Origin: a virus
Direction: 5' to 3' (one strand)
Virus record (IMG/VR): IMGVR_UViG_3300050821_006356
Span: 1-36,053 of that record
Length of the DNA: 36,053 nucleotides
Shown: in pieces, positions 2,167-31,397 of the stretch
Layout: each line of letters opens with the position of its first letter
Position numbering within the stretch: the stretch's first letter is position 1
Made by a program: the position numbers and the translations under genes
The notes under the pieces: generated by a model
Databases searched by the model: none
What the model saw: the letters and a program-made list of their open reading frames with translations, nothing else
Told to the model about the DNA's origin: nothing

Positions 2167-2408
2167 GCGCCCGGCCGACGCCGCAGGCCGAGGCGGCCAT
2201 CCGGCGCGTGCTCAGACGCGCCGGACGGCGGCTGCTCTCAGATCAGCTCGCGCAGCTCGACCGCGACGCGGTCGGCGACCGAGGCGCGGCCCCGCGCGAC
2301 GTAGGCCGCCTCGACCGCGGCACCGATGATCTCGCGGCGCTCGGCGAGGGTGAGCCGGTCCCAGTCGGCCGCCGCGCTGATCGAGATGCCGCTCGCCACC
2401 GTCGCTAG
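2163..2408 (+). CDS. Possible small gene cut short at the recombinase end
   Basis: A GTG at 2163 overlaps the stop of the zinc-finger gene in the same GTGA style used throughout this operon, so a gene probably starts here. The first 25 residues (VSARPTPQAEAAIRRVLRRA and onward) look like real protein: a basic amphipathic helix. From about 2238 the frame runs antisense through the end of the serine recombinase and turns into arginine-rich sequence typical of a shadow frame. The simplest reading is a gene whose 3' part was lost when the recombinase was inserted or exchanged. It could also be a real gene with a long convergent overlap, or no gene at all. Confidence 0.3.
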   Translation: MSARPTPQAEAAIRRVLRRAGRRLLSDQLAQLDRDAVGDRGAAPRDVGRLDRGTDDLAALGEGEPVPVGRRADRDAARHRR

Positions 2409-3623
2409 CCGCGCCGCCTCGGCCAGGGCCTTGTCGCGGTGAACGCGCAGCAGCTCGACGGCCTCCTGTGCGGCGGCCTCGCCCTCGGCGTCGACGAGCA
2501 TCAGACGCCGCAGCGCGGTGTCGAGCTTGGCCTGGGCGGCCTCGACCTTGGCGGCGGCGGCGCGGGCACGCTCGTTGGCCGAGGTCGTCTCCTCGATCCC
2601 GGCGGCGTAGGCGCGCACCCGGTCGACGATGTAGGCCTCGACGGCGTCGGCGGAGATCGTCACCGGCGCCGAGCATTCGCCGGGCATGCCGCACTTGTAG
2701 AACGCATACCGCCGGGTGGTGTCGCCCCAGCGCGCCGTCTGCCCACCGGCCACCATCCTGGCCCCGCACGAGGCGCAGCGCAGGACACCGAGGCGGGCGA
2801 GCAGGCGCTCGGACTTCGGGGCCCGGCCGCCGGTGGTGCGCATGCGCTGGACGGCGTCCCAGACGTAGCGCTCGACGATCGCCTCGCACGCGGTGGGGTT
2901 GACCGTCTCGCCGTGGCGCAGCTCGCCGACGTAGAGCGGCGAGCGCAGCAGGATCTGCACCGAGCGGTAGCTCAGCTCGTGGCCGTGCTCGGCGAGCAGC
3001 TCACGCACCTTGGCGTAGGGCTGGCCCGCGGCGCGCAGCGCGAAGGCCTCGGCGATGGTCTCGCGCAGATCGTCGACGACCTCGGCGCGGCCGTCGGCGC
3101 CGCGCACGTAGCCCAGCGGCAGGGTGGGATAGGGCACGATCCCGTCGAGGACCCGGCGGCGCACCGAGGCGCCCGAGCGCTCGCGGGCGGTGCGGGCGGT
3201 GTGCTCGGCCATGGCGCCGAGCAGTGTGGCATTGAGCCACTCGGCAGCGGTGCCGTTGGTGATGGCGCCCGAGTCAAGGGCGACGACCTGGCCGCCCGCG
3301 GCCTCGACGCGCTGCACCACCTCGGCCTGCGTCGCCAGCGAGCGAAACAGGCGGTCAAAGTAGGCGGCCATGATGACGTCGGCCTCGCCGTTCTCGACCA
3401 TGGCGACGGCCTCGGAGAGACCGGGCCGCTTGTCCAGGGCGCGGCCGCCGGACACATCCATCTCCTCATAGACCTTGAGCAGGGCGCCGCCGTTGCGGTC
3501 GCACTCGGCCTTGATCCGGTCGGTCTGCTGGCCGGGGGAGGCGAACGAATCGCCCTCGCGGTCGCCGACCTCGGAGACTCGGACAAGGCCGACGATGCGC
3601 TGGGCGCTGGTGGTGGGGGACAT
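2238..3623 (-). CDS. Large serine recombinase (probable integrase)
   Basis: A 461-residue large serine recombinase. Residues 9-150 form the resolvase catalytic domain: the nucleophile is Ser17 in GLVRVSEVG, and YFDRLFRS carries the conserved D-R-L-x-R arginines. The recombinase domain follows (PYPTLPLGYVRGADG and the SVQILLRSPLYVGELRHG region). Next come a zinc ribbon with LRCASCGARM and YKCGMPGEC, then a coiled-coil segment rich in Ala, Glu and Arg, as in phage integrases. Such enzymes join attP and attB without host factors. I chose the ATG at 3623 because it follows AAAGGA in the start-associated sequence. A longer frame to 3653 lacks one. The gene runs against its neighbours and interrupts the plus-strand operon. 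An imperfect inverted repeat upstream is a candidate attP. Confidence 0.93.
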   Translation of the reverse strand: MSPTTSAQRIVGLVRVSEVGDREGDSFASPGQQTDRIKAECDRNGGALLKVYEEMDVSGGRALDKRPGLSEAVAMVENGEADVIMAAYFDRLFRSLATQAEVVQRVEAAGGQVVALDSGAITNGTAAEWLNATLLGAMAEHTARTARERSGASVRRRVLDGIVPYPTLPLGYVRGADGRAEVVDDLRETIAEAFALRAAGQPYAKVRELLAEHGHELSYRSVQILLRSPLYVGELRHGETVNPTACEAIVERYVWDAVQRMRTTGGRAPKSERLLARLGVLRCASCGARMVAGGQTARWGDTTRRYAFYKCGMPGECSAPVTISADAVEAYIVDRVRAYAAGIEETTSANERARAAAAKVEAAQAKLDTALRRLMLVDAEGEAAAQEAVELLRVHRDKALAEAARLATVASGISISAAADWDRLTLAERREIIGAAVEAAYVARGRASVADRVAVELRELI

Positions 3624-3630
3624 GACGGGG

Positions 3631-3643
3631 TCCTTTCGGGGGG
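3631..3643 (-). promoter_or_regulatory. Start-associated sequence of the recombinase gene
   Basis: Read on the minus strand this is CCCCCCGAAAGGACC, ending seven bases before the ATG at 3623. It contains the AAAGGA ribosome-binding core and the run of cytosines shared with six other minus-strand genes between 7936 and 10218. The recombinase is therefore probably expressed under the same translational signal as that gene block. Confidence 0.8.
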
Positions 3644-3664
3644 AGGAATTCATGCCTCACAGTC

Positions 3665-3712
3665 TACTACCTTTCCAGACGCGCGTCGACACTGGCGTCT
3701 AAGAAAGTAGTA
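3665..3712. other. Imperfect inverted repeat, candidate attP or operator
   Basis: Arms 3665-3682 and 3695-3712 are 18 bases each and match at 14 positions when one is reverse-complemented. The outer six bases (TACTAC and GTAGTA) and the inner six (AGACGC and GCGTCT) match exactly. The 12-base centre is GCGTCGACACTG. Total length, imperfect dyad symmetry and position just upstream of a large serine integrase fit a phage attachment site. An operator between two divergent genes is the main alternative. Confidence 0.45.
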
Positions 3713-3723
3713 TGAGCCCCGCC

Positions 3724-3753
3724 TTGCCCCTGCTTGCCCCAGCGGCGTAAACT
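3724..3753 (+). promoter_or_regulatory. Possible plus-strand promoter
   Basis: TTGCCC at 3724-3729 and TAAACT at 3748-3753 are separated by 18 bases, which fits a primary sigma factor promoter. It lies in the gap between the recombinase and the plus-strand operon starting at 3796, where a promoter is expected. The similarity is moderate and there is no transcript evidence. Confidence 0.4.
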
Positions 3754-3795
3754 CTACACAGTCGGATCGGGAGAGTCGAGGTCGGGAGGTTGCCG

Positions 3796-3969
3796 GTGGA
3801 GAGCAGCGAGCGCGAGCGTGGGACGTTCTATGCCACCCTGCGGGTCGAACTGGAGGACGTCACCGAGGCGGTGGCGCGTGAATTCTGGGGGGCGCTGGTC
3901 GACTATCCAATCGACCTCGGCGGCTATATCGCCACCGTCGTCGCGGTGACGCCCGAGGTGGTGCCATGA
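3796..3969 (+). CDS. Small hypothetical protein at operon start
   Basis: A 57-residue protein read from a GTG at 3796, which follows GGGAGG (3784-3789) at a good distance. Its stop overlaps the ATG of the next gene (ATGA), which supports it as the first gene of the operon. The sequence is acidic, with TFYATLRVELEDV and GGYIATVVAVTPE suggesting beta strands with a helix between (TEAVAREFWGALV). I do not recognise the family. It is too short for most automatic calls but has the codon pattern of its neighbours. Confidence 0.6.
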   Translation: MESSERERGTFYATLRVELEDVTEAVAREFWGALVDYPIDLGGYIATVVAVTPEVVP

Positions 3970-4370
3970 GCTTTACCAATGACCTGATCGCGCGCCTGTT
4001 GAGGCGCGAGGATGAGCTGCGGGCCGAGCTTGACCGGGTGATGGCGGCGCGCGCCGCTCTCGGCCCGCGTGCCGCTGTCGCCGAGGCGCTCAAGGCCCAC
4101 GATGCGAGTCACGCTCTGGCGCGCTCGGCGGGGGCCTTCGAGGAGCCCGCCGAGGTGCTCGTGCTCGTGCTCGACGGCCTCGACACGGCGGCCAAGCTGG
4201 CCGTGCGCCTCGGCAATCCGCGGGGCCCGGTGACGCGGTGCCTGCGCGCCCTGCGCCGCGAGGGCCTCGTCGAGCTGGATGCGGCCAATCACTGGCGCCC
4301 GACCGAGCTGGCGCGGCAGCTCGATCTGGAGTCGGCGCCGTCTCGCTGGGCCCAGGCCGCCATGAGATGA
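3966..4370 (+). CDS. Winged-helix DNA-binding protein
   Basis: A 134-residue protein. The first 50 residues form a charged helix (LIARLLRREDELRAELDRVM) that could be a coiled coil and a dimer contact. Residues about 68-115 look like a winged helix: AAKLAVRLGNPRGPVTRCLR is the helix-turn-helix and REGLVELDAANHW the wing, as in MarR/ArsR-type domains. A regulator role in the early region is inferred. The start is fixed by overlap with the preceding stop. The next winged-helix gene, two genes downstream, has the same coiled-coil then winged-helix layout. Confidence 0.7.
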   Translation: MSFTNDLIARLLRREDELRAELDRVMAARAALGPRAAVAEALKAHDASHALARSAGAFEEPAEVLVLVLDGLDTAAKLAVRLGNPRGPVTRCLRALRREGLVELDAANHWRPTELARQLDLESAPSRWAQAAMR

Positions 4371-4675
4371 CCGGCCACTACTTCGGCCCCGACGGCGAGC
4401 CGATCGGGATGTGGGACTGGTGCAGGCTCATGCGCGACGAGGCCAGCCATCGCGTGGCGCTGACCGAGCTGCCCGGCGGCGTCGAGGTCTCGACGGTGTG
4501 GCTCGGGCTCGATCACAATTTCGGGGCGGGGCCGCCGTTGATCTATGAGTCGATGGTGTTCGGCGGGCCGCTCGATCACGTCCAGCAGCGCTACCCCAAC
4601 CGGGTGGCGGCGCTGGCCGGGCACGATCAGCTCGTCGCCGCGGCGCGCGACGCCGCCGTCGGGGCGCCGCGGTGA
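4367..4675 (+). CDS. Conserved phage hypothetical protein
   Basis: A 102-residue protein that starts MTGHYFGPDGEPIGMWDW and contains STVWLGLDHNFGAGPPLIYE. This pattern, with a Y-F-x-x-D-G-x-P-I start and a V-S-T-V-W-L-G-L-D-H block, recurs in small proteins of many phages and prophages, usually without assigned function. Its role is unknown. The rich aromatic content and mixed strand pattern suggest a small globular domain. The ATG overlaps the stop of the winged-helix gene, and its own stop overlaps the next GTG, so it is in the middle of one operon. Confidence 0.75.
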   Translation: MTGHYFGPDGEPIGMWDWCRLMRDEASHRVALTELPGGVEVSTVWLGLDHNFGAGPPLIYESMVFGGPLDHVQQRYPNRVAALAGHDQLVAAARDAAVGAPR

Positions 4676-5028
4676 GCGACGTCGACGATGGGATTCTCGT
4701 CGCGCTCCAGGCCGAGCTGGCCGAGTTGCGCGCCCAGCGCAAGGTCATCGACGAGCGGATCGCCCGCTGCGAGGCGGCCGTGTCGGCGCTCAACGGCGAT
4801 TTTCACCGCCTCGGCGGGCGGCGCTCGGCGACGGCCGGGCACGCCATCCTGGCGGCGCTGTCGACGTTCAAGGGGCCGGTGCGCACCGAGGACCTGCTCG
4901 ACCAGGAAGGGCTCGGCCACTACTCGCGCAGCACCCTGCGCGGCGCGCTGTCTGAGCTGCATCGGTCGGGCCGTCTGGTGCCGGTCGAGCGCACGCCTCG
5001 GGGCTACATCTGGGAGCCGCCGCGGTGA
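4672..5028 (+). CDS. Coiled-coil plus winged-helix protein
   Basis: A 118-residue protein with a GTG start overlapping the previous stop. Residues about 8-42 form a heptad-like coiled coil (LQAELAELRAQRKVIDERIA). Residues 55-112 look like a winged helix: HAILAALSTFKGPVRTEDLL, then SRSTLRGALSELHRSGRLV as the recognition helix and wing. It is probably a dimeric DNA-binding regulator, though no target can be named. Its design resembles the gene at 3966, so the two may be distant paralogues. Confidence 0.68.
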   Translation: MSDVDDGILVALQAELAELRAQRKVIDERIARCEAAVSALNGDFHRLGGRRSATAGHAILAALSTFKGPVRTEDLLDQEGLGHYSRSTLRGALSELHRSGRLVPVERTPRGYIWEPPR

Positions 5029-5399
5029 GCGGCTCGCCGAGCTGGTCGTTGTTCGTCGACTTCGCCCGGTCGCGCCCGGCGAGCGTGCGCGAGCTGATGC
5101 GCGCCTGGCCGCCGCTGTGCACCGTGCGGACCCGGCCGCATGTCACGCTGCTGGTGCCCGCGCCGGGCGTCGACGGCCGCGTTGAGAGCTACACCGAGGA
5201 CGGGCGCCTAGGGGTGGTGGCGCCGATCACCATCCCGCACCCCGAGCACGGCTACGGGATGGGGCGCCCGGGGATGCTGGCCAAGGGGATGTGCGCCCCG
5301 ACCGATCTCGTGCTCGTCGACGAGCCGATCTGGACCCGCGCCGACGTGGCGCGGGCCCTGGAGCAGGACACGCGGCCACCGGCGCGAAAAGGGCGCTAG
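5025..5399 (+). CDS. Hypothetical protein, last gene of the early operon
   Basis: A 124-residue protein with no family that I can name. It has a mixed alpha-beta pattern, with HVTLLVPAPG and LGVVAPITIPHPEHGYG suggesting strands and a loop rich in Gly and His. The C-terminal tail (ARALEQDTRPPARKGR) is basic. The GTG start overlaps the previous stop. A long inverted repeat begins six bases after the stop, so transcription of the operon probably ends here. Confidence 0.65.
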   Translation: MSGSPSWSLFVDFARSRPASVRELMRAWPPLCTVRTRPHVTLLVPAPGVDGRVESYTEDGRLGVVAPITIPHPEHGYGMGRPGMLAKGMCAPTDLVLVDEPIWTRADVARALEQDTRPPARKGR

Positions 5400-5404
5400 C
5401 GGTC

Positions 5405-5497
5405 TCTGAGCGGCCGTCTGCGGCGCTCCCCGCGATTCTGCGGGTGCTAGGTCATCTGGGAGGATCAGCGCCGCAGACGGCCGGAGAATGGCTCAGA
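5405..5497. terminator. Long inverted repeat, probable two-way terminator
   Basis: Arms 5411-5426 and 5468-5483 are perfect 16-bp complements (CGGCCGTCTGCGGCGC and its reverse complement). The outer segment TCTGAG (5405-5410) can also pair with CTCAGA (5492-5497) past a bulge. The loop holds a smaller hairpin, CCCGC with GCGGG (5429-5444). It lies between convergent operons ending at 5399 and 5522, so it could stop both. No clear U-run follows on either strand. Confidence 0.7.
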
Positions 5498-5521
5498 GCG
5501 CTTGGTGCTCATATCACGCAG

Positions 5522-5692
5522 TTATCGAGCGTCCGAGTCGTCAAGCGGTTCGTCGCCTGCCGCTGGTTCCAGCTTGGCCCATAGTTCGTCGGTGATCTCG
5601 TGAGTGGCCCAAAACGCATCTGCTTCGGCCTCTGACGCGAACACGGGAATCTCGCTCGGATCGGTGATCGGGATCTTGTCGTCGGTAGTCAT
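5522..5692 (-). CDS. CopG-antitoxin-like small protein
   Basis: A 56-residue protein from the ATG at 5692, found by reading the gap directly. IPVFASEAEADAFWATHEIT resembles the I-P-x-F-x-S-E-x-E-x-x-x-F-W-x-T-H motif of the CopG-type antitoxin family (PF12441), usually paired with BrnT-like or RelE-like toxins. Those antitoxins normally have a DNA-binding ribbon-helix-helix after this motif. Here the tail is short and acidic, so DNA binding is doubtful. I see no toxin next to it. The ribosome-binding site is weak, and it follows the stop of the upstream gene by nine bases, as the last gene of the minus operon. Confidence 0.55.
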   Translation of the reverse strand: MTTDDKIPITDPSEIPVFASEAEADAFWATHEITDELWAKLEPAAGDEPLDDSDAR

Positions 5693-5701
5693 AAGACGGG
5701 A

Positions 5702-6040
5702 TTACCGGGCGTCGGCGAGCTGGCGCGCCAGAGCGACGATGGCGGGCAGCGCGTCGAGGTTGCGATAGTGGCCGAGCAGGAGCTGGGCTCGGCTGGCCAG
5801 GCTCGCGGTGTGGGCATTGGGCCGCGCCGCGCGCGCTGAGCTGATGCGACGCAGCTCGGCGTGGCAATCGTCGATCAGCTTGTCGCGCTGATCGCTGAGC
5901 GTGTCGAGCAGATCGAGGTCGATCGCCGCGAGCACGGCGAGCGCCTTGTCGCGAGCGATCGCCGCCTCGTGCTCGTTGGGCGAGGCCGCTAGGGCCACCA
6001 GCTTGGTGAGCCGCGCGCCGGTGTCGCGCCAGTCGCTCAT
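5702..6040 (-). CDS. Hypothetical helical protein, weak DUF2786-like start
   Basis: A 112-residue helical protein. The start (TKLVALAASPNEHEAAIARD) resembles the first part of DUF2786 domains, where a K-x-x-x-L-x-x-A-x-S-x-N-x-x-E-A pattern precedes a long helix. The match is short and I treat it as tentative. The remainder is Ala/Leu-rich helix with no catalytic motif in view. Its ATG overlaps the stop of the gene upstream by four bases, so it is coupled within the minus operon that begins at 6799. Confidence 0.65.
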   Translation of the reverse strand: MSDWRDTGARLTKLVALAASPNEHEAAIARDKALAVLAAIDLDLLDTLSDQRDKLIDDCHAELRRISSARAARPNAHTASLASRAQLLLGHYRNLDALPAIVALARQLADAR

Positions 6041-6300
6041 GGCGCATCGTCCTGCGTCAGTGAGTCGAGCAGTAGGCGGTCGCCGAGATCGCCGATCGGA
6101 TCGGTGCTGTGCAGCGCGCCGGTCGTATCGAGCGTGACCGTGCGCTCGTGCTGGCGCACGACGTCGATCGGGGCGGGCGACCCGATCGGGCCGCTCAGCT
6201 CGGCGCGCAGCTCGCCATGCACGACGACATCGCGGTGCAGGCGCCCGCGGCCGCCGGGCAGCGGCTCGACGCGGTAGACGATCTCGCTGCGGTCGCTCAT
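6037..6300 (-). CDS. Hypothetical protein
   Basis: An 87-residue acidic protein with no recognised family. The pattern is mostly strand-like: EIVYRVEPLPGGRGRLHRDV and ERTVTLDTTGALHST. A short helix-like acidic tail (LGDRLLLDSLTQDD) closes it. ATGA overlaps at both ends place it firmly in the 6799 to 5522 operon. It could be a small binding or inhibitor protein, but nothing in the sequence shows that. Confidence 0.65.
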   Translation of the reverse strand: MSDRSEIVYRVEPLPGGRGRLHRDVVVHGELRAELSGPIGSPAPIDVVRQHERTVTLDTTGALHSTDPIGDLGDRLLLDSLTQDDAP

Positions 6301-6578
6301 GGCGTCGACCGATTGCTGCGCTCGTGGATGACCTGGCCGCCGCGGTACTCCTGCACGTAGGCGTAGCTGCCCCAGCGATCGGCCAGGGCGATGGCCTCGG
6401 CGCGGCTGGTGCGGTAGAAGCGACTCGGCGTCGGCTCGACGCCGGGCGCGGTCGAGACCGACAAGGTGGTGATGACGTAGAGCGCGGTTCCGTCGTCGTC
6501 GTCGTGTTCGTCGGGCGTCGCCTCGGCGCGATCCAGGCGCCGGGCGATCAGGTTGTCGACCTGCTTGCGGGGGTTCAT
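6297..6578 (-). CDS. Hypothetical protein
   Basis: A 93-residue protein with a basic start (NPRKQVDNLIARRLDRAEA), an acidic spacer (DEHDDDDG), then a likely beta-alpha unit (ALYVITTLSVSTAPG and SRAEAIALADRWGSYAYVQE). It ends in a polar tail. No family is recognised. It overlaps the helix-turn-helix gene upstream and the next gene downstream by four bases each, so all are expressed together. Confidence 0.65.
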   Translation of the reverse strand: MNPRKQVDNLIARRLDRAEATPDEHDDDDGTALYVITTLSVSTAPGVEPTPSRFYRTSRAEAIALADRWGSYAYVQEYRGGQVIHERSNRSTP

Positions 6579-6799
6579 GCTGCGGCCTTGCGACGGCCGG
6601 GGGAGCGGTCGGCGGTGGCGTTCCAGGCCTCGATATCGCGCTCGCGCCAGAGACGGCCGCTCACGCTGCCGTCGCCGTTGTGGGTGACGGCGGCCGGGCG
6701 CGGAAAGTCGCGGCGGCCGTTGACGAGCTGGTTGACGCGGTAGCGCGTGACGCCGAGGATCTTGGCGACCTCGGCGGTGCTGAGCAGATTCTGGGTCAT
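6575..6799 (-). CDS. AlpA/MerR-type helix-turn-helix protein
   Basis: A 74-residue protein of the small helix-turn-helix group that includes AlpA regulators and phage excisionases. LLSTAEVAKILGVTRYRVNQ is the typical first helix pair, and NGRRDFPRPAAV followed by GRLWRERDIEAWNA is the wing and last helix with the usual W-x-x-x-D-I-x-x-W end. It may act as a regulator or as a recombination directionality factor for the serine integrase. The choice cannot be made from sequence. I chose the ATG at 6799, which follows GAGGAACC. A longer frame to 7078 overlaps a membrane-protein gene and is a shadow. It heads the operon that runs to 5522. Confidence 0.82.
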   Translation of the reverse strand: MTQNLLSTAEVAKILGVTRYRVNQLVNGRRDFPRPAAVTHNGDGSVSGRLWRERDIEAWNATADRSPGRRKAAA

Positions 6800-6838
6800 G
6801 GCGATGGTTCCTCGGTGATGGTGGGTAGGGTTACGGCG

Positions 6839-6854
6839 TTCCCTTCGGGGGGAA
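6839..6854 (-). repeat. Variant start-associated sequence without an adjacent gene start
   Basis: On the minus strand this reads CCCCCCGAAGGGAACG, two changes from the common start-associated sequence. No start codon follows at the usual distance. The next gene (6799) begins 40 bases further and has its own shorter copy, GAGGAACC. It may be a relic or a second binding site. Confidence 0.5.
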
Positions 6855-6864
6855 TACGGGTCAA

Positions 6865-6898
6865 GGGCGAGCCCGACGGTCCTGCGCCGGGCTCGCCC
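6865..6898 (-). terminator. Hairpin terminator after the membrane-protein gene
   Basis: Arms GGGCGAGCCCG (6865-6875) and CGGGCTCGCCC (6888-6898) are perfect 11-bp complements around a 12-base loop. It starts nine bases past the stop of the gene ending at 6907 when read on the minus strand, so it probably ends that transcript. Confidence 0.72.
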
Positions 6899-6906
6899 GT
6901 CCTGTG

Positions 6907-7194
6907 TCATGCGGCCGGGGCGGCGGTGCGTGGGCGGCTCATGAACCAGATGAGCGCAAAGAACACGAACCCGACGAACCCGATAAACAGGATCACCAGC
7001 ACGGCGATCCCGCCACCGGCGGCGGCGGCGTTGCTGCAATCGGTCCGGGTGAGCACGCCTGCGGCGCCCTTGACGCAATTGCCGACCTGGTCGCCTGCGC
7101 TACCGGCGGCGCTGGACGCCCAGACGATGATCGCCAGGCACCAGGCCCAGAGGACGTAGGTCATCTTGCGGATACGGCGGAGCTTGCTGAACAT
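6907..7194 (-). CDS. Small two-helix membrane protein
   Basis: A 95-residue protein with two hydrophobic segments: residues about 12-31 (TYVLWAWCLAIIVWASSAAG) and 62-85 (GIAVLVILFIGFVGFVFFAL). The linker has two cysteines about 14 residues apart and is probably outside the cell. IWFMSRPR closes the second helix with positive charges on the inside. This layout is common in small membrane proteins of actinobacterial phages and prophages, some suspected to affect superinfection, but no function can be assigned. The ATG at 7194 follows TTGGAG at a rather long distance. It is flanked by hairpins on both sides and seems to be a single-gene unit. Confidence 0.72.
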   Translation of the reverse strand: MFSKLRRIRKMTYVLWAWCLAIIVWASSAAGSAGDQVGNCVKGAAGVLTRTDCSNAAAAGGGIAVLVILFIGFVGFVFFALIWFMSRPRTAAPAA

Positions 7195-7244
7195 GGGTGT
7201 GTATCTCCAATTGTGTAGGTTTGAAATGGCGGGTGACTCCCGCT

Positions 7245-7287
7245 CGCGGCCCTCGTCTCTCCCAAGGCACAGGAGGCGAGGGCCGCG
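7245..7287 (-). terminator. Hairpin terminator after gene 7297-7938
   Basis: Arms CGCGGCCCTCG (7245-7255) and CGAGGGCCGCG (7277-7287) are perfect 11-bp complements around a 21-base loop. On the minus strand it begins ten bases after the stop at 7297 and lies before the gene starting at 7194, so it separates the two transcription units. Confidence 0.68.
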
Positions 7288-7296
7288 GCCGAGCGA

Positions 7297-7938
7297 CTAG
7301 GCCTGGGGTGAGCCGACCGGGCGCCAGCCCTCGGCCTTGGGGCGGTCGGTGCGGATGATGATCGTGCGCACCTGGCTGGCGCCGCCGAGGCCGCGGGCAC
7401 CGGCGGGCGCCCAATGGATGGCGGCGGCCGGGGCGACCTCCTCGATCTCGACCTCGGCAAACCCGCGCTTGCCCAGGGTGGTGGCGCGCTTGGGGCGCAC
7501 CGGCAGCCAGACGTTTTCGCTGTCCGAGCGCCAGCGCTGGCCGTAGCGGGTGGTGACCTCGCGGGCATCCTCGACGATCGAGCCGTCGGTGCGCGTCAGC
7601 ACCGTGCGGGCGAAGGTCCAGGTGTCGCCGTGCTCGGCGAGCGTGGCCTGGGTGCGCTTGAGCTGGGCGGTCATGCCCGAGGCCCATTGGCTGAGAAAGC
7701 CATCGGTGTCGCAGCGCTCGAAAGACTCGGCGGCGTCGCGGTCGTGCTGGGCGGCCTGGGCGCGGAGCTGGTCGGCGCTGTCCGAGCTGGCGACGGCCTC
7801 GACGCGGTCGATGCGGTGATGGCGCGTCAGCCGGTAAGCCACCTCGGTGGCGGCGTCGCGCTCGTTGTCGGCCTGCTTGGTGTCGCTCATCTGCTCGCCG
7901 GTCGGCATGTAGGTGTGGTGCACGGTGAAGTAGGGCAT
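7297..7938 (-). CDS. Hypothetical protein with own promoter and start-associated sequence
   Basis: A 213-residue protein with no recognised family. The first part (MPYFTVHHTYMPTGEQMSDT) is followed by a long charged helical region to about residue 105. The C-terminal half is strand-rich, with RTIIIRTDRPKAEGWRPVG near the end. An enzyme motif is not visible. It begins two codons after nothing but the start-associated sequence at 7943-7958, and a promoter-like box lies at 7971-8006, so it appears to be a single-gene unit ended by the hairpin at 7245-7287. Confidence 0.7.
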   Translation of the reverse strand: MPYFTVHHTYMPTGEQMSDTKQADNERDAATEVAYRLTRHHRIDRVEAVASSDSADQLRAQAAQHDRDAAESFERCDTDGFLSQWASGMTAQLKRTQATLAEHGDTWTFARTVLTRTDGSIVEDAREVTTRYGQRWRSDSENVWLPVRPKRATTLGKRGFAEVEIEEVAPAAAIHWAPAGARGLGGASQVRTIIIRTDRPKAEGWRPVGSPQA

Positions 7939-7942
7939 GTCG

Positions 7943-7958
7943 GGTTCCTTTCGGGGGG
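7943..7958 (-). promoter_or_regulatory. Start-associated sequence before gene 7938
   Basis: The minus strand reads CCCCCCGAAAGGAACC, ending four bases before the ATG. It contains the AAAGGA ribosome-binding core. It is one of seven near-identical copies. Confidence 0.85.
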
Positions 7959-7970
7959 TGGCTGCTGCTT

Positions 7971-8006
7971 GGTACTAAATATACACGGGTGGCTAGGGTT
8001 GGTTAC
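7971..8006 (-). promoter_or_regulatory. Promoter-like box, copy A
   Basis: On the minus strand GTAACC (8006-8001) and TATATT (7983-7978) are spaced by exactly 17 bases, a sigma-factor promoter layout. The interval is conserved with copies B and C (AACCAACCCTA then CCGTGTATATTT). It lies between the stop at 8014 and the start-associated sequence of gene 7938, where a promoter is expected. Overlap with an operator is possible because the whole block, not only the hexamers, is conserved. Confidence 0.7.
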
Positions 8007-8013
8007 GCGCTGG

Positions 8014-8580
8014 TCAGCGCGCTGACATCTCGGCCGCCACGGTGCGCTCGATCTCGCGCAGGGCGCGAGCCCAGGCGGTGACCGACCGCATGGCGGTCTC
8101 GCCGCGGTAGCTCTCGCGCCGGTAGCGCGCCATCCTCGGCGCCGAGATCCGGTCGTAGGCCTCCAGGCACTGCTGGGGCGTGGCGTCCAGCTCGCCCAGG
8201 CCCATGCCGTAGCCGAACATCTTGGCCAGCTTGCGGGCGGCGTCGCGCTGGCGGCGCACGCGCACCAGCTCGCTGTAGCGCTGGCCGTTGCCGTAGTCGT
8301 GACCGAGGTCGCGGCGCGCGTCGTCGTACAGGCCGAGCACCGACAGCTCGGCGTCGAGGCGCTGGGCCTGGGTCACCAGCTCGTCGCGGGTGGGGTAGGG
8401 CTGGGTGGTCATGGTGGTGGTTCCTTTCGGGGGATTGGTGGGGTTGCGCTTGTTGGACGTCCTGGCTGCGCGGCGTTCCTGGGCGGTCGAGCGCCCGGCG
8501 CTGTAGTGGCGAGGGCAGGTCGTCCAGGCCTTGGCGGGGGTGCGCGTGCACTCGCCGAATGAGCAGATCTGGCGAGGCAT
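8014..8580 (-). CDS. Hypothetical protein with possible internal second start
   Basis: The frame from the ATG at 8580 gives 188 residues. The start lies two bases after the stop of the upstream gene, which supports coupling. Residues 1-30 contain ICSFGECTRTPAKAWTTCPR and CPRHYS, with cysteines and a histidine that could bind zinc. An ATG at 8412 in the same frame follows a full start-associated sequence. Starting there gives 132 residues (MTTQPYPTRDELVTQAQRLD onward), a helical protein. No stop separates the two, and the conserved DNA is translated as P-P-K-G-T-T-T. Either one gene has two products, or two former genes are fused. No known family is recognised for either part. Confidence 0.65.
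   Translation of the reverse strand: MPRQICSFGECTRTPAKAWTTCPRHYSAGRSTAQERRAARTSNKRNPTNPPKGTTTMTTQPYPTRDELVTQAQRLDAELSVLGLYDDARRDLGHDYGNGQRYSELVRVRRQRDAARKLAKMFGYGMGLGELDATPQQCLEAYDRISAPRMARYRRESYRGETAMRSVTAWARALREIERTVAAEMSAR
8419..8433 (-). promoter_or_regulatory. Start-associated sequence inside gene 8014-8580
   Basis: The minus strand reads CCCCCGAAAGGAACC, then the ATG at 8412. It matches the other copies except for one fewer cytosine. Unlike the others it lies inside an open frame, which marks 8412 as a likely true start. Confidence 0.82.
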
Positions 8581-8582
8581 GG

Positions 8583-8831
8583 CTAGAGGCCGAGCGCGCG
8601 GCGCTCGACGGCCCAGAAACGGTCGATGGGTTTGGCGAGCTGCGCCTCGTCGAGGTCGCTGGCGCACAGCGCGTTGACCAGCTCGCGGCCGGTGCGCAGG
8701 TGCAGGGCGATCGTGCCCTCGGTGGCGTCGCCGTTGCGGCCGGTCAGCTCGCGGCGCTCGATCCGGCGCAGCACCGAGGCGAGGTTGCGGCTCGTGCGGT
8801 TGAGCTTGGCGATGGTCTGGTCGGTGGTCAT
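8583..8831 (-). CDS. Small helical hypothetical protein
   Basis: An 82-residue, almost fully helical protein (NRTSRNLASVLRRIERRELT and LRTGRELVNALCASDLDEAQ). It has no recognised family. The ATG at 8831 is set by a start-associated sequence at 8839-8854. The frame remains open far upstream, but that part is a shadow of the next gene. There is no promoter box between it and the gene at 8855-9193, so the two are probably transcribed together from copy B. A zinc-finger-like reading frame follows two bases after its stop. Confidence 0.68.
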   Translation of the reverse strand: MTTDQTIAKLNRTSRNLASVLRRIERRELTGRNGDATEGTIALHLRTGRELVNALCASDLDEAQLAKPIDRFWAVERRALGL

Positions 8832-8838
8832 GGTCGTG

Positions 8839-8854
8839 GGTTCCTTTCGGGGGG
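8839..8854 (-). promoter_or_regulatory. Start-associated sequence before gene 8831
   Basis: The minus strand reads CCCCCCGAAAGGAACC, ending seven bases before the ATG. It abuts the stop codon of the upstream gene (8855), leaving no room for a separate promoter. Confidence 0.85.
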
Positions 8855-9193
8855 TTAGAGGTGCATCGGCTGGGCCGAGGTCAGCTCGACCTTGCCGTCG
8901 TCGATGCGGGTGACGGTGACCGGCGCCCGGCTGGCGAGCCCGATCAGCTCGGCCGTGGTCGGCTGGTCGAGGATCACCGAGTAACCGCGGCCGCGATTCT
9001 CGCGGCGCTCGGCCTCGACGTTGAGCGCGGTGGCGACCGCGTGCTGGCGGTCGTAACGCGCGACGGCGCGCTGCGGCAGCGGGCCGCCGGTGTGCGTGCT
9101 CTGCACGCTGTGCAGCTCGGCGCGGTTGTGGGCGAGCATCAGCTCGGCCAGGGTGTGCAGCTCGGTGGGGGTGAAGTCGTTGAGGGAGATCAT
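8855..9193 (-). CDS. Hypothetical protein
   Basis: A 112-residue protein with a helical first half (SLNDFTPTELHTLAELMLAH) and a mixed second half that ends in short strands (PVTVTRIDDGKVELTSAQP). No family is recognised. The T-P-x-E-L-x-x-L-A-E-L start resembles short helix-turn units in small phage proteins. The start at 9193 is fixed by a start-associated sequence. Promoter-like copy B lies about 50 bases upstream. The gene is first in a two- or three-gene unit that goes on to 8014. Confidence 0.68.
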   Translation of the reverse strand: MISLNDFTPTELHTLAELMLAHNRAELHSVQSTHTGGPLPQRAVARYDRQHAVATALNVEAERRENRGRGYSVILDQPTTAELIGLASRAPVTVTRIDDGKVELTSAQPMHL

Positions 9194-9197
9194 GGCT

Positions 9198-9213
9198 GGG
9201 TCCTTTCGGGGGG
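9198..9213 (-). promoter_or_regulatory. Start-associated sequence before gene 9193
   Basis: The minus strand reads CCCCCCGAAAGGACCC, ending four bases before the ATG. It has the GGACC form also seen at the recombinase, in place of GGAACC. Confidence 0.85.
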
Positions 9214-9250
9214 TGGTGGCCGGTGGCCGGTGCTAATGACTGTATCGACA

Positions 9251-9279
9251 AATATACACGGTCGTTTAGCGTTGGTTAC
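9251..9279 (-). promoter_or_regulatory. Promoter-like box, copy B
   Basis: On the minus strand GTAACC (9279-9274) and TATATT (9256-9251) are 17 bases apart, with CGACCGTGTATATTTGTCGA around the -10. It is upstream of gene 9193 and just past the hairpin that ends gene 9343-9540. The flank GTCGAT downstream of the -10 is shared with copy D. Confidence 0.7.
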
Positions 9280-9304
9280 GCGATCGGTCAGCACTCTGAC
9301 AACG

Positions 9305-9334
9305 CATCGAGCCCGCCGGTGGGCGGGCTCGATG
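9305..9334 (-). terminator. Strong hairpin terminator after gene 9343-9540
   Basis: A perfect 13-bp stem, CATCGAGCCCGCC (9305-9317) with GGCGGGCTCGATG (9322-9334), closes a 4-base loop. It lies eight bases past the stop at 9343 on the minus strand and directly before promoter-like copy B. Confidence 0.8.
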
Positions 9335-9342
9335 GCGCTGGG

Positions 9343-9540
9343 CTAGGCGGGGTCGTCGACGTAGGCGGTGATGCTCGCCCGCGAGCGGTGATAGGTGACG
9401 ACGGCGGGGCCGTGGATGGCGTTCTCGGCCTTGCTGCTGGCCGGGTTCCAGGCGGTGTCGCCCTTGGCCAGCTCGACGCGGGCGATGGTCCAGCCCTCGC
9501 CCGCGTCGGTCCAGGTGAGGTCGGCGTTGGTGTAGTGCAT
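9343..9540 (-). CDS. Small hypothetical protein
   Basis: A 65-residue protein, probably strand-rich: NADLTWTDAGEGWTIARVEL, then a polar loop, then GPAVVTYHRSRASITAYVDD. I recognise no family. The high share of aromatic residues and lack of helix-forming stretches suggest a small beta domain. Start at 9540 is set by the start-associated sequence at 9542-9557. A hairpin sits upstream of that sequence, so expression from copy C would need read-through past the hairpin, or a promoter that I did not see. Confidence 0.65.
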   Translation of the reverse strand: MHYTNADLTWTDAGEGWTIARVELAKGDTAWNPASSKAENAIHGPAVVTYHRSRASITAYVDDPA

Positions 9541-9541
9541 G

Positions 9542-9557
9542 GGTTCCTTTCGGGGGG
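9542..9557 (-). promoter_or_regulatory. Start-associated sequence before gene 9540
   Basis: The minus strand reads CCCCCCGAAAGGAACC, followed by only one base before the ATG. It lies immediately after the hairpin at 9561-9586. Confidence 0.85.
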
Positions 9558-9560
9558 TGA

Positions 9561-9586
9561 GCAGGCGCCGCGGGTGCGGCGCCTGC
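9561..9586 (-). terminator. Hairpin between genes 9595 and 9540
   Basis: A perfect 11-bp stem, GCAGGCGCCGC (9561-9571) with GCGGCGCCTGC (9576-9586), closes a GGGT loop (plus-strand sequence). It follows the stop at 9595 on the minus strand. No U-run follows, so it may be a partial terminator or an RNA processing or stabilising hairpin before gene 9540. Confidence 0.7.
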
Positions 9587-9594
9587 GGTGTTGG

Positions 9595-10197
9595 CTAGAG
9601 ACTGGGGACGGCCCAGACGGCGTCGCGGCTGACGGCCTTGGTGGTCATCTGCACGTAGGTGGCGGCCTTCTCGGCCAGCGGGAGCGCGTCGTGCGCGCGG
9701 GCGGCGTCGAGCTTGGCCTCGTCGCGGTCGGCGCGGTTGCGGGCGTCGGTGGCCCATTGGCGGAGCTGCTCCGCGGTCCAGACGATCGTCCGCTGGCTGT
9801 AGTTGTTGGGCTGGTCGGCGACGGCGCGGTATTCGGCGGGCAGCTCGGCCCAGACGACCCACTTGTCGTCACCGTCGAGGTGGTCGGTGGCCAGGCCCAG
9901 GCGCTCGACGATGGTGGCCTCGGCCTCATAGCGCTCGGCCATCTTGCGCGAGCTGGCGGCGTCGCGCATGAGGCGCGCCTCGTGCGAGATGGCGGCCAGC
10001 TCCCAGGCCTGCTTGACGGCGCTCGGGGTGGTGTACTCGGCGGTCACGCGCTTGGGGCCGACCTTGGTCACGCGGGCCACGCGGTTGCGGCCGCGGCTGT
10101 AGATGACGACGAGCTGGCCCACCTCGGGCGACTCGACCTTGTCGGTGAGGTCGGCGCTGGCGACGACGGCGGCGGGGAGATCGGTGATTGCGGTCAT
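9595..10197 (-). CDS. Hypothetical protein, possible KOW-like start
   Basis: A 200-residue protein with no named family. Residues about 25-55 (EVGQLVVIYSRGRNRVARVT then KVGPKRVTAEYTT) form short strands in a pattern like small SH3-type or KOW-type barrels, which often bind nucleic acid. This is a weak resemblance. The rest is a long charged helix region (about 60-185), with two tryptophan-rich blocks (DDKWVVWAELP and IVWTAEQLRQWAT). The start at 10197 is set by the start-associated sequence, and promoter-like copy C lies 34 bases further upstream. A hairpin follows the stop. Confidence 0.7.
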   Translation of the reverse strand: MTAITDLPAAVVASADLTDKVESPEVGQLVVIYSRGRNRVARVTKVGPKRVTAEYTTPSAVKQAWELAAISHEARLMRDAASSRKMAERYEAEATIVERLGLATDHLDGDDKWVVWAELPAEYRAVADQPNNYSQRTIVWTAEQLRQWATDARNRADRDEAKLDAARAHDALPLAEKAATYVQMTTKAVSRDAVWAVPSL

Positions 10198-10201
10198 GGT
10201 G

Positions 10202-10218
10202 GGTTCCTTTCGGGGGGG
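10202..10218 (-). promoter_or_regulatory. Start-associated sequence before gene 10197
   Basis: The minus strand reads CCCCCCCGAAAGGAACC, ending four bases before the ATG. It has one extra cytosine compared with the other copies. Confidence 0.85.
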
Positions 10219-10237
10219 TGGTTGCTTGCTGGTACTA

Positions 10238-10266
10238 AATATACACGGTCGGATAGGGTTGGTTAC
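10238..10266 (-). promoter_or_regulatory. Promoter-like box, copy C
   Basis: On the minus strand GTAACC (10266-10261) and TATATT (10243-10238) are 17 bases apart. Over 36 bases (10231-10266) it differs from copy A at only a few positions in the spacer. It abuts the hairpin of the preceding gene and precedes gene 10197. Confidence 0.72.
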
Positions 10267-10294
10267 ACCTAGGCCAGGAGATCTGGCCTAGGTG
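10266..10294 (-). terminator. Hairpin terminator after gene 10304-10516
   Basis: A perfect 12-bp stem, CACCTAGGCCAG (10266-10277) with CTGGCCTAGGTG (10283-10294), closes a GAGAT loop. It lies nine bases past the stop at 10304 on the minus strand and touches the -35 end of promoter-like copy C. Confidence 0.78.
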
Positions 10295-10303
10295 CAGGCT
10301 CGA

Positions 10304-10572: not shown

Positions 10573-10603
10573 TATCGACATATAGTACACGACTGTTTAG
10601 GGT
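10573..10603 (-). promoter_or_regulatory. Promoter-like box, copy D (divergent)
   Basis: The minus strand reads ACAACCCTAAACAGTCGTGT followed by ACTATATGTCGATA. It aligns with copy B over the conserved CCTAAAC, CGTGTA and GTCGATA parts. The -10 would be TACTAT (10587-10582). The -35 hexamer is less like GTAACC. It lies between gene 10516 and the plus-strand genes. Confidence 0.55.
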
Positions 10604-10644
10604 TGTGGGCGAAGAATTCCGTAAGAGCGCGCCGGTCGCTCTGC

Positions 10645-27349: not shown

Positions 27350-28680
27350 CGCTGACCTGTAAGCACGTCCCCGCCAACGCGCAGCAGATCCCCAATCTCA
27401 AGCTGCTGGTGGCGCTGGCCAAGCAGATGGGGGCCAACCAGTCACAGATGGCCGGGGCGATGGCGACGATGATCCAAGAGTCAAACGCCGTCAATCTGAG
27501 CGGCGGCGACCGTGACTCGGCCGGGCTGTTTCAGCAGCGGCCGTCGATGGGCTGGGGCAGCTACGCGCAGGTGACCAACCCCACCTATGCGATCAACAAA
27601 TTCCTCAGCAAGTACATGCCGCTGGTCAAGCGCGGCGTGGCCATCTTCGCGGCGTCTGACCAGGTCCAGGGCTCGGCCTTCCCGCAGGCCCCGGCGCAAT
27701 GGTATGACGAGAGCTGGGCCAACGTCACCCAGCTTACGTCGGGTAAGGACTTCATCGACGCCACCAGTCTCGGCGGGTCGACCAGCTCGACGACCACCCG
27801 CGTGCAGCCCTACGAATTCTCGCGCGGCAACGCGGGCCAGCGCGAGACCTCCTGGGACTGCATCGGCCGCCTGGCCGACGAGGTGAGCTGGGATCGGTTC
27901 ATGCGCGGCGGGGCGCTCTGGTTCGTGTCCGAGAACTACCTCAAGTCCCAGCCGCCGCGGTTCACCTTCTCGGTCGGCGCCCGCGGGGTGACGGCGATCA
28001 ATTTCGACTCTGACTCGCGGCGCAACGCCGCCGAGGCCACCGTCACCGCGCTGGCCAAGCGCTGGTCGGTGCTGCCCGGCGACGTCGTCACCGTCTCGGG
28101 CGAGGGGCCCGGCGATGGGCTCTGGCTGGTCTCAGACGCCCGGCGCACCCTCTGGGACGACACGACCGAGATCACCCTCAAGCGGCCGGTGGCGCCCAAG
28201 CTGGAACCCGCCAACACGACGACCACCGTCACCGTCGGGGGCCTGCCGAGCCTCGGCGGCTCGTCGGCGAGCGGCGCGCCCAAGCTCGCCCAGGACTTCT
28301 ACGCGGCCTGTAAGGCGATCTCAGACCGGGGGTTGCCCTACGTGTACGGCGGCGGCCACGGCGCCGTCGGCGTCGCCTCGGGCGGTGGCTTTGACTGCTC
28401 GGGCTCGGTGTGCGCGGCGCTCGGCGCGGTCAAGCTCGGCTACCAGCTCGGCGGCCCGTGCGCGGTCTCGGGGACGATGGCCACCTCGTGGGGCGTCGCG
28501 GGACCCGGCAAATACTTCACCGTCTGGGCCAACCCCGAGCACGTCTGGGTCCAATTTCACGGGTTCCCCAATTGGCGCTTTGACACCTCGCCCCACGGCG
28601 ATGGCCCCCCCGGCCCGCGCCTGCGCAAGTCGGCGCGCTCGACGGCGGGATTCACTCCCAAGCACTGGCCGGGTCTGTAA
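27346..28680 (+). CDS. Baseplate hub protein with transglycosylase-like and NlpC/P60 domains
   Basis: A 444-residue multi-domain protein. Residues about 1-125 look like a lysozyme or transglycosylase domain: [11 protein letters not shown] with Glu45 as likely acid, then [16 protein letters not shown], the G-L-F-Q-x-x-P mark. Residues about 150-285 ([39 protein letters not shown] and [20 protein letters not shown]) resemble the later part of phage hub proteins. Residues about 305-440 look like an NlpC/P60 peptidase: [14 protein letters not shown] with Cys351, then EHVWVQF with His399. It would cut both glycan and peptide bonds during tail entry. It overlaps the hub N-terminal gene. Confidence 0.82.
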
Positions 28681-31397
28681 TGCCCCAGCTCGATCAGCTA
28701 TTCGCCAAGATGGGCACGCCGCCGTTCTCGGGCCCGCAGTGCTGGGAGGGCACCGTGGTGGCCACCGACGGCTCGGGGACCTACATCGTGCTGGAGACCT
28801 TCGACGGTCGCCTGCGCTGGGGGCCCTGTCAGCCCCCAGGAGCCTCCGTAACGGTCGGCCAGCGCGTTTCCGTCGCCATGTCCCAGGACGGTGTCCTATG
28901 GCTGCTCGGGGGCGCAGGTGGCGGCGGAGCGCCCGGGCCGCCAGGGCCCGAGGGCCCGATGGGGCCGAAAGGCGACACCGGACCGACCGGCGCCACCGGC
29001 GCGCCGGGCGCCGCGGGCCCGACGGGGCCGCAGGGCGGCAAGGGTGACAAGGGCGACACCGGCGCCGCCGGGCCGACGGGGGCGACGGGCCCAACCGGAC
29101 CGACGGGCCCCCAGGGCGTCAAGGGTGATACCGGCGCCACCGGCGCGACCGGCGCGCCCGGCAAGGACGGCGTGGGCTATGAGGCTTCGCCCGTCGGGGC
29201 GGTGCTCACCTTCCCCGGTAAGAACCTGCCCGTCGGCTACGTGCTCGCCGACGGGCACACCTACGCCAAGGGCACCTATCCCCAGGGCTATGACTTCGCC
29301 GTTGCCGAGGTCGCGGCCGGTAACCCGCTCTGGACCGTCAACGCCGCCGCCCAGACGTTCACCGTGCCCGACCTGCGCGATCGGTTCCTGTACTCCTCGT
29401 CGTCGGCGGCGCTCGGCTCGGCCGGTGGTGAGGCGGCCCATACGCTGGTCAATGGTGAGATGCCCGCGCACGCGCACAGCGGCGCGACGACGGGCGGCAC
29501 CACCGGCGCAGACTCGCCCGATCACGCGCATACGCCGTCCGGCTACGGCAATTTCATAGCGACGAACACGGGCGGGACTTACACCGGGTTCGCGGGCGGT
29601 GGCGCGGGCGGCGTGGTCAGCACCGGAGCGGCCAGCGGCGTCACCGGGGGCACCGCGGGGGCGAACGTTCGCCACGCCCATAGCGTGCCCGCGCTTGGGA
29701 TCTACAGCGACGGCGGCGGCGGTGCGCACAACAACATGCCGCCCTATGTCGTGCTCGCCTTCATCGTCAAGGTGTGGGGCGTCGTCAACAACGGGTCGAC
29801 GCTGGTCGGCCCGCCCGGCGCTCGCGGCAACACGACCTATCTCTACACCGGCGTGGGCACGCCCCCGGCGGGCACGTTCCCGGGAGAGATCGACGGCGAC
29901 TGGGCGGTGCGCAAGGGCGACGGGGAGAATTTCCAGCGCCAGGCGGGCGCGTGGGTGGACCTCGGGTTTACCAACCGCTCGACGGCGGCGGTCAACATGA
30001 CGCGGGCGTACCGAACTGCTGCGTTCACAGTGGCATCGCAGACATGGCAGGCGATCCCACTCGACACGATCGCCTACGACCCAGGTGGCTATTTCAACAA
30101 GACGACGGGCAAGTACGTCGCGCCCACCACTGGGACATACCTGTGCACCGGAGCAGTAATGTTTGCGCCCGGAACCACCGGAGCCATTGCCGGGCTGTCG
30201 ATCAACGGGGGTCTACCGTCGATGCGCGGCGGCGCGGCGGTGAACGTCCCATCTCCGCTGGGCATCGAAGCACCTACGGTCACGGACATCGTTTTCTGCA
30301 ATGCGGGCGACACGATCGCGCTGGCGTGCTTCCCGGGTGGCGCGGATGCTCTGTACGTCGGGAATGCCGCCACGACGTACCTGTCGGTCGTGCAGATCGC
30401 GGCCGGGCCGGGGCCGCAGGGGCAGCGCGGCTCTAATTGGTTCACCTACACCGGCGCGGGGACGCCGCCAGCGGGAACGTTCCTCAACGAGACCGATGGC
30501 GACATGGCGACGCGCAGCTCGGACGGCGAGGTCTTCCGGCGCATCAGCGGCGCCTGGTCAGATCAGGGGTGGAAGGTCGCGACGGGGTCGAACACGATGG
30601 ATACGTGGCACCTGGTGGGCACGGCGGGCGAACCTGCGTTCCAGAATGGATATGTGAACTACGGCGGCGGCTTCGCTGCGTGTGGCTTTCGGCGGTTCCC
30701 CGACGGCAAGGTCAAGCTCAAGGGGCTGGTCAATGGACCGGGCGCGTCGGCGGTGATCTTCACTCTGCCGCCCGGCTACCGGCCGCCGGGCGAGACCAAG
30801 CTCAACGTGGTGCAGACCAATAGCGTGGTCGGGCGCGTCGATGTTGCGGCCACCGGCGAAGTGGGCGTGTCGGTAGGCACGTCGGGCTGGGTGTCGCTGG
30901 ACAACATCGAATTCGATACCAACGCCGTCTCGGTAATGAGCGCGGGGGCGATGGGACCACCGGGACCGGGCAGCGGCGCGTACAGCGTGCAGCGCACCTG
31001 GATCGGCTATCCCGGCGCGTCGGTCGAGTCGTACACCGCGACGTTCACGACGTCGCAAAGTCCGCTGTCGCTGAGCATTACGCCGAGCGTCCCTATCTGG
31101 TGGGAGGTCTACGGAAAATTCGGGCTCGTGACCAGGGTCGATGCCGCCTACAACTACGCGACCGCCTACCTGATCCTTAACCCGGTCGATCAGGACGGGA
31201 TCAACCAGGGGATTCACTACATCACGCAGCACTCACAGGTTCAGACCATCGAGGGCTATGAGGTCAAGCGCATGTTTCGCCTCGCTGCTGGCACCACCTA
31301 CACCGTCACCTGGATTTTCAACCCGAGCGCGGGCTCGTGGAACTACTACCAGGGCCGCTCTCAGACCTATCTCGATGCGAAAGCGTGGGCGCAATGA
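28680..31397 (+). CDS. Baseplate spike / tail fibre with collagen-like, collar and C1q-like domains
   Basis: A 905-residue protein. Residues about 1-80 form an OB-like spike start ([33 protein letters not shown]). Residues 85-160 are collagen-type triplets ([20 protein letters not shown]). Residues 165-365 are a tail-collar domain: [27 protein letters not shown], histidine pairs MPAHAHSG and RHAHSVP, end [18 protein letters not shown]. Two linkers, each with GTPPAGTF, flank a C1q-like domain at about 440-575 ([40 protein letters not shown]). Then comes a common fibre domain ([16 protein letters not shown]) and an unmatched end. It is likely the receptor-binding part. Base composition shifts near 30000. 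Confidence 0.82.

Follow-up and report, generated by a model that had tools for sequence, protein, structure and literature searches.

Which signal is shared by the start codons of the small early genes and of the integrase in the uncultured soil phage shown above, and at which level would it act? The window analyzed here is the whole of IMG/VR virus record IMGVR_UViG_3300050821_006356 (36,053 bases, 70% GC). The element in question is CCCCCCGAAAGGAACC, of the form C5-7-GAAAGGA-(A/C)CC, located on the minus strand, directly 5' of each of seven ATG starts. We consider it likely that this motif is a start-associated sequence (SAS), that is, a translation-initiation element standardized across six small early genes and a serine integrase. 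The seven copies, the open reading frames (ORFs) that follow them and a degenerate eighth copy are as follows.

10202..10218, minus strand: copy 1 (C7GAAAGGAACC; motif scan), start 10197; ORF of 200 residues at 9595..10197, minus strand (ORF call)
9542..9557, minus strand: copy 2 (C6GAAAGGAACC), start 9540, directly 3' of an 11-bp hairpin and without the promoter-like repeat described below; ORF of 65 residues at 9343..9540, minus strand (ORF call)
9198..9213, minus strand: copy 3 (C6GAAAGGACCC; motif scan), start 9193; ORF of 112 residues at 8855..9193, minus strand (ORF call)
8839..8854, minus strand: copy 4 (C6GAAAGGAACC), start 8831, beginning beside the stop codon of the preceding gene; ORF of 82 residues at 8583..8831, minus strand (ORF call)
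8419..8433, minus strand: copy 5 (C5GAAAGGAACC), start 8412, within the in-frame longer ORF 8580-8014; ORF of 132 residues at 8014..8412, minus strand (ORF call)
7943..7958, minus strand: copy 6 (C6GAAAGGAACC; motif scan), start 7938; ORF of 213 residues at 7297..7938, minus strand (phrog_5855, function unknown)
3628..3643, minus strand: copy 7 (C6GAAAGGACCC; motif scan), start 3623; large serine recombinase/integrase of 461 residues at 2238..3623, minus strand (phrog_95, E 3e-61; Pfam Resolvase, Recombinase, Zn_ribbon_recom)
6837..6852, minus strand: degenerate eighth copy, CCCCCCGAAGGGAACG, not at a start codon, about 37 nucleotides 5' of the next start, 6799 (motif scan)

The first-pass annotation had placed the motif 1 to 7 bases before seven minus-strand starts and had described its conservation as extending past the ribosome-binding core, including the run of C. 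Both statements were confirmed, the first at all seven coordinates. The distance from the end of GGAACC or GGACC to the start codon is 1-7 nucleotides, and that from the last A of GAAAGGA to ATG is 7, 4, 7, 10, 9, 7 and 7 nucleotides for starts 10197, 9540, 9193, 8831, 8412, 7938 and 3623, respectively. Around the core, only one A/C position varies between columns -5 and +9 (GGAACC in five of the seven copies; GGACCC at 9193 and 3623), and columns -16 to -10 come close to random sequence. The run consists of seven C at 10197, five at 8412 and six at the other five starts. GAAAGGA occurs in the whole window, on both strands, at exactly these seven sites, and the motif was not found on the plus strand of the window. 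With up to three mismatches the 15-mer was found 8 times against 1.0 expected by chance; the 12-mer CCCCCGAAAGGA did not occur in 200 Markov versions of the window with the same dinucleotide make-up, in which GAAAGGA averages 1.27. The motif is confined to non-structural genes, i.e., early-type ORFs and the integrase, the structural genes being located on the plus strand.

Two of the starts show further peculiarities. The copy before 8412 lies inside an open, in-frame ORF (8580-8014, minus strand, 188 residues), whose first 56 residues resemble a small zinc finger (CSFGEC...CPRHY) with atypical GC content by codon position; the gene may have two starts, with the SAS read through as a linker in the longer product. 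For the integrase, another ATG in the same frame is located at 3653 (window 3653-3623, minus strand), shortly downstream of a TAGACT hexamer resembling a -10 element, and a longer, leaderless integrase may exist beside the SAS-led form.

The core GAAAGGA is complementary over 7 bases to UCCUUUC at the end of 16S ribosomal RNA (rRNA), and the 16S tail GGATCACCTCCTTTCT is present in actinobacterial genomes. The upstream C's and the downstream ACC cannot lengthen this pairing, yet they are nearly invariant. The mean unpaired probability of the RNA at positions -16 to -4 was 0.74 for the seven SAS sites; at the remaining starts it was 0.43 on the minus strand and 0.37 on the plus strand. The flanks of C and A leave the core single-stranded to an unusual degree for a genome of 70% GC, and random flanks lowered this openness on average.

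The SAS of cluster K mycobacteriophages, GGGATAGGAGCCC, is present in 11-19 copies at the position of the ribosome-binding site (RBS); about half of the copies carry an extended SAS (ESAS), the SAS is lost or reduced in K8 and K4, and the integrases of the cluster are tyrosine recombinases (Pope et al. 2011, PMC3203893; PMC11373665; PMC12699233). In Microbacterium phages of cluster EF, the SAS is GGGAAAGGACCCC, with ten copies, all accompanied by an upstream repeat centered on GTAGAG, and neither an integrase nor a repressor has been identified (PMC7302621). The features of the cluster K SAS are found again in the window: multiple copies in a single orientation, a few nucleotides from ATG; an RBS position with a Shine-Dalgarno (SD) core and conserved, non-pairing flanks; restriction to non-structural genes on one strand; and rarity in the host, as judged from the sampled genomes. 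As in cluster K, about half of the copies have a repeated promoter-like element 5' of them, three of the seven in the window being preceded by such a conserved sequence in the manner of an ESAS.

In contrast to cluster K, the window motif has another sequence (no match to GGGATAGGAGCCC with up to two deviations), lacks the GGG...CCC symmetry and is present in 7 copies against 11-19; its upstream repeat is without the significant inverted repeat of the ESAS, and the gene set includes a large serine integrase. Nearest in sequence is the SAS of cluster EF, both having AAAGGA followed by C's, an RBS position and an upstream repeat, although the window has a C-run in place of the upstream GGG and carries the upstream repeat at 3 of 7 copies, compared with 10 of 10 in EF. 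By analogy with both clusters, the window element appears to work like an SAS and to be a new sequence of the SAS kind, distinct from that of cluster K. The suggestion that the type was known from cluster K while this sequence differed holds for the sequence; the type itself is known more widely, since the EF motif had already been published.

A signal common to host genes was considered next to these phage motifs. The 15-mer occurs in 12 copies in 397 Actinomycetota genomes across the phylum, with at most two per genome, the own host of this phage being not identified among them, and in 2 copies in the 22 genomes that hold portal relatives. The host search proposed in the first-pass annotation, with presence before most host genes as the observation that would overturn its reading, thus gave no such picture, and a host RBS signal was rejected as far as checkable. 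Among viral records, the exact 16-mer is present in 23 other, unrelated IMG/VR stretches, mostly just 5' of an ATG; in the 18 of these 23 that were checked, the 11-mer core is found once each, and twice in one record. Scans of IMG/VR with the exact 16-mer and with the promoter-like repeat returned no other multi-copy carrier. In unbiased relatives, CCCC lies within 10 nucleotides upstream of a start-associated AAAGG in 17% of cases, against 7 of 7 in the window.

Do related phages use the same motif? A profile search added 21 larger records to forty portal relatives, and the window motif was found in multiple copies in none of them. A de novo scan of the relatives allowed up to two mismatches in start-associated 12-mers and used reversed sequences as control (at most 6 copies); exact 9-mer counts alone could not part private motifs from GC-rich noise, maxima of 3-6 being reached in reversed sequences as well, and the 12-mers separated the two better. 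Families of at least seven copies that contain an SD core were detected in the window and in four relatives (G029, G490, G487 and G492), together with a more generic word in a fifth, G036. The search of related phages thus yielded private multi-copy sequences that differ from one another, and not the window motif itself.

G029: CCCCGAATGAAAGG; portal 72% identical to that of the window; integrase start 6497
G490: CCGAAAGGGTCCTTGCA, directly before ATG; portal 45% identical; integrase start 7381
G487: GGAGCCATCCC; portal 54% identical; integrase start 13133
G492: GAGGTACAGC; portal 53% identical; integrase start 15747
G036: GGAGGCAAG, in four copies only, a weak case; portal 67% identical; integrase start 39982

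One copy in G029, CACCCCGAAAGGAAAC at 3197, lacks the extra TGA and is close to the window motif. The start regions of relatives with a private sequence are also open (0.51-0.67 versus about 0.39). A mini-hairpin common to all SAS (GGG/CCC in clusters K and EF, GGA/TCC in G487, CC-GAAA-GG in the window) was tried as a shared feature and proved weak; it is absent in G492 and G036.

The private sequences of the relatives precede small early genes and the serine integrase, and the integrase start carries the sequence of its own phage in each of the five records listed, as start 3623 does in the window. This is in agreement with the earlier proposal that the recombinase is tied to the gene set, and because the serine integrase bears the private start sequence in every SAS relative, a link between integration and the early genes is supported with moderate strength. 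In G029 the integrase (6497) is on the plus strand and the remaining SAS genes are on the minus strand; the integrase of G490 is 44% identical to that of the window. Each record has about 53-65 heuristic gene calls, of which 6-8 are SAS genes; if genes were drawn at random, the joint chance of including the integrase in G029, G490, G487 and G492 would be of the order of 1e-4 to 3e-4. It would be nearer 1e-2 if the motif is limited to early genes, and the integrase starts of G487 and G492 had been inspected before the control scan ranked their motif. A further caution on this link comes from five integrase-bearing records (G481, G483, G484, G489 and G491), in which no family of at least seven copies was found. 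At 15542 (plus strand) in G490 lies an ortholog of gene 9540 (51% identity over 51 residues), which starts after ACGAACGAAAGGAACCGGCC / GAAAGGAACC. Since the sequence before this start is window-like and is not the private motif of G490, this case hints that genes may travel together with their starts.

Upstream of three SAS genes (10197, 9193 and 7938) we found a promoter-like repeat of 45 nucleotides, GTAACCAACCCTA-N-CCGTGTATATTTAGTACC (GTAACCAACCCTA, then CCGTGTATATTT), which contains TATATT. The sites, with scores against a position weight matrix (PWM), and the hairpins near them are as follows.

10229..10273, minus strand: promoter-like repeat upstream of copy 1 (PWM score 63.9)
9242..9286, minus strand: promoter-like repeat upstream of copy 3 (PWM score 58.7)
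7969..8013, minus strand: promoter-like repeat upstream of copy 6 (PWM score 64.1)
10573..10617, minus strand: diverged promoter-like repeat upstream of start 10516, a gene without SAS (PWM score 47.2)
10262..10303, minus strand: hairpin of 14 bp following gene 10516 and preceding the promoter-like repeat of gene 10197 (-27.1 kcal/mol)
9553..9594, minus strand: hairpin of 11 bp between gene 10197 and copy 2 (-26.5 kcal/mol)
9285..9342, minus strand: hairpin following gene 9540 and preceding the promoter-like repeat of gene 9193 (-37.8 kcal/mol)

The next independent site scores 8.5, compared with 47-64 for these four. A weak promoter match 5' of the integrase, near 3761, did not exceed the background score and was discarded. 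The best 17-bp arms of an imperfect inverted repeat within the upstream repeat match at 9 positions, the same as in shuffled sequences. Of the four SAS genes without the promoter repeat, three (9540, 8831 and 8412) come behind another gene, and the integrase, 3623, stands alone. Strong hairpins of at least 11 pairs end gene units after 10516, 10197, 9540, 7938, 7194 and the integrase, and the early region resembles a series of small units, each with a putative promoter, the SAS, one or more genes and a hairpin. Several SAS copies of G029 likewise come after strong-looking hairpins.

Since the internal copies at 9540, 8831 and 8412 are without a promoter, the SAS would act on RNA rather than on DNA. 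Most likely, as judged from its anatomy, it would provide an open, strong and uniform RBS by which the early genes and the integrase are equally accessible to ribosomes; the integrase would then be expressed in step with the early genes once their transcripts appear. The exact flanking letters could be kept either by a phage-encoded reader or by the spread of a start cassette within the genome. We lean slightly toward a reader, because conservation stops sharply at the motif and the sequences on both flanks are unrelated. The use of a different sequence by each of several relatives suggests a phage-specific marking of the genes that are translated together. With several SAS sequences in one clade, each including the serine integrase, what had been a curiosity of cluster K becomes a recurrent, fast-turning design. 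A wider picture, in which a clade of soil actinophages carries, on the integrase and a set of small early genes, genome-private translation marks that coevolve with a phage-encoded reader and prevent cross-regulation between close relatives, is at present an unlikely extension.

Several observations weigh against a dedicated element. Between 9 and 37% of random flanks per site match the native openness; because so many are equally open, openness is probably a part of the story and not the cause of the exact letters, and as a sole cause it is insufficient and leaves the six C's unexplained. An early protein common to all SAS phages, which would be the candidate reader, was not found. Actinophages and actinobacterial plasmids often have strong SD sites behind leaders rich in C, A and T and poor in G, and part of the motif thus appears to be ordinary good RBS design.

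Among the alternatives, the first is that a phage RNA-binding protein recognizes the SAS on the mRNA and represses or activates the gene set including the integrase, the private sequence being a private binding site; T4 RegA is a model of how such a protein would work. The sharp borders of the motif, its absence from the sampled hosts, and the turnover of the sequence among relatives with the integrase always included are as expected for such a site, and the product of gene 10197 (9595-10197, minus strand) gave a weak match to the Pfam family Phage_ProQ_C_like (PF24203), with an E of 0.0076, below cutoff. Against it stand the lack of a candidate gene common to the SAS phages and the low confidence of the structure model of the 10197 protein (mean predicted local distance difference test score, pLDDT, of 54), which shows three N-terminal strands followed by helices and is too poor for a fold search. 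This protein had no relatives in viral contigs by single-sequence search and no match in INPHARED. Specific RNA binding is thus a tentative possibility. If a reader protein exists, it would represent a new kind of orthogonal translation control.

It is rather doubtful that the seven sites are plain strong RBSs, in which the C-run reflects avoidance of G under high GC content, and convergence or chance retention accounts for the identical letters. The 7-nucleotide SD match of the core and the 23 unrelated IMG/VR stretches with the 16-mer, mostly just before an ATG, are what plain RBSs would give, and other actinophages and plasmids have C/A-rich leaders, with only 10% G, before GAAAGGA. Ordinary SD sites of Microbacterium phage GardenState and Arthrobacter phage Soondubu also combine GAAAGGA with a G-poor leader. 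In these phages, however, the flanks vary from site to site, while 15 letters are fixed, or nearly so, in all seven copies of the window, which holds no further GAAAGGA; the unrelated stretches hold single copies (two, of the shorter core, in one record). The sequences of the relatives are equally uniform and different from one another, and the letters 3' of the SD core in GGAGCCATCCC (G487) and AAAGGGTCCTTGCA (G490) neither pair with rRNA nor open the RNA. G-poor leaders before GAAAGGA thus appear to be ordinary background, from which the window motif would stand out by its repetition.

The spread of cassettes, in which promoter-leader-start pieces are copied, or acquired with genes, and are kept alike by recombination in the absence of a reader, is likewise improbable as the full explanation. 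Between copies 1 and 6 the similarity extends over 79 nucleotides (77%), from promoter to start, and the genes are arranged in small units parted by strong hairpins, both as cassette spread predicts, but other pairs are alike within the motif only, which needs selection or very short gene conversion, and the spacing between motif and ATG ranges over 4-10 nucleotides. If no reader exists, such sequences would serve as prefabricated start cassettes, free of structure, in hosts of high GC content. That a transcription regulator of the phage binds the motif as a DNA operator or as part of a promoter is very improbable, because the motif lacks symmetry, is confined to one strand and is tied to start codons, and four of the seven copies lack the promoter repeat, three of them lying between genes within a unit, even though three copies lie just downstream of that repeat and two small helix-turn-helix-like proteins are encoded (6575-6799, minus strand, and 3966-4370, plus strand).

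As to the phage itself, the plus strand encodes a terminase, portal, major capsid protein, tail sheath, tape measure, baseplate and collar/collagen fibre, and the phage is therefore contractile-tailed. The minus strand carries small early-type ORFs from 10516 downward and, past a plus-strand cluster at about 3.7-5.4 kb, the serine recombinase. The phage is temperate, and its host would be an actinobacterium, since its portal relatives belong to Actinomycetota phages and prophages; those in genomes reach 48% identity at most, insufficient to name the host. No similarity to the window at the DNA level was found among 50,697 phage records, and a single-sequence search of viral contigs returned no relatives of the integrase.

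Some minor observations were made in parallel. An IS110-family element (WP_006247666.1) is present three times in the Mycolicibacterium gilvum plasmid pMSPYR101 (L135:4467, 8585 and 14615), each time exactly at the RBS of a different gene, inside GAAAGGAC; the same sites are uninterrupted in the related plasmid pJCM12603 (L134), which suggests that the element may target ribosome-binding sites. The 41.9-kb record G029 (IMGVR_UViG_3300036785_000476) carries one part of the homolog of window ORF 4238-4675 at each of its ends, and because of this division it probably represents a complete genome in circularly permuted form. In the window, the early clusters on the plus and minus strands converge on a very large hairpin at 5400-5500 (-58.8 kcal/mol), which is probably a bidirectional terminator. 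Finally, 28680-31397 (plus strand) encodes a tail fibre of 905 residues with collagen-like repeats and a phage collar domain.

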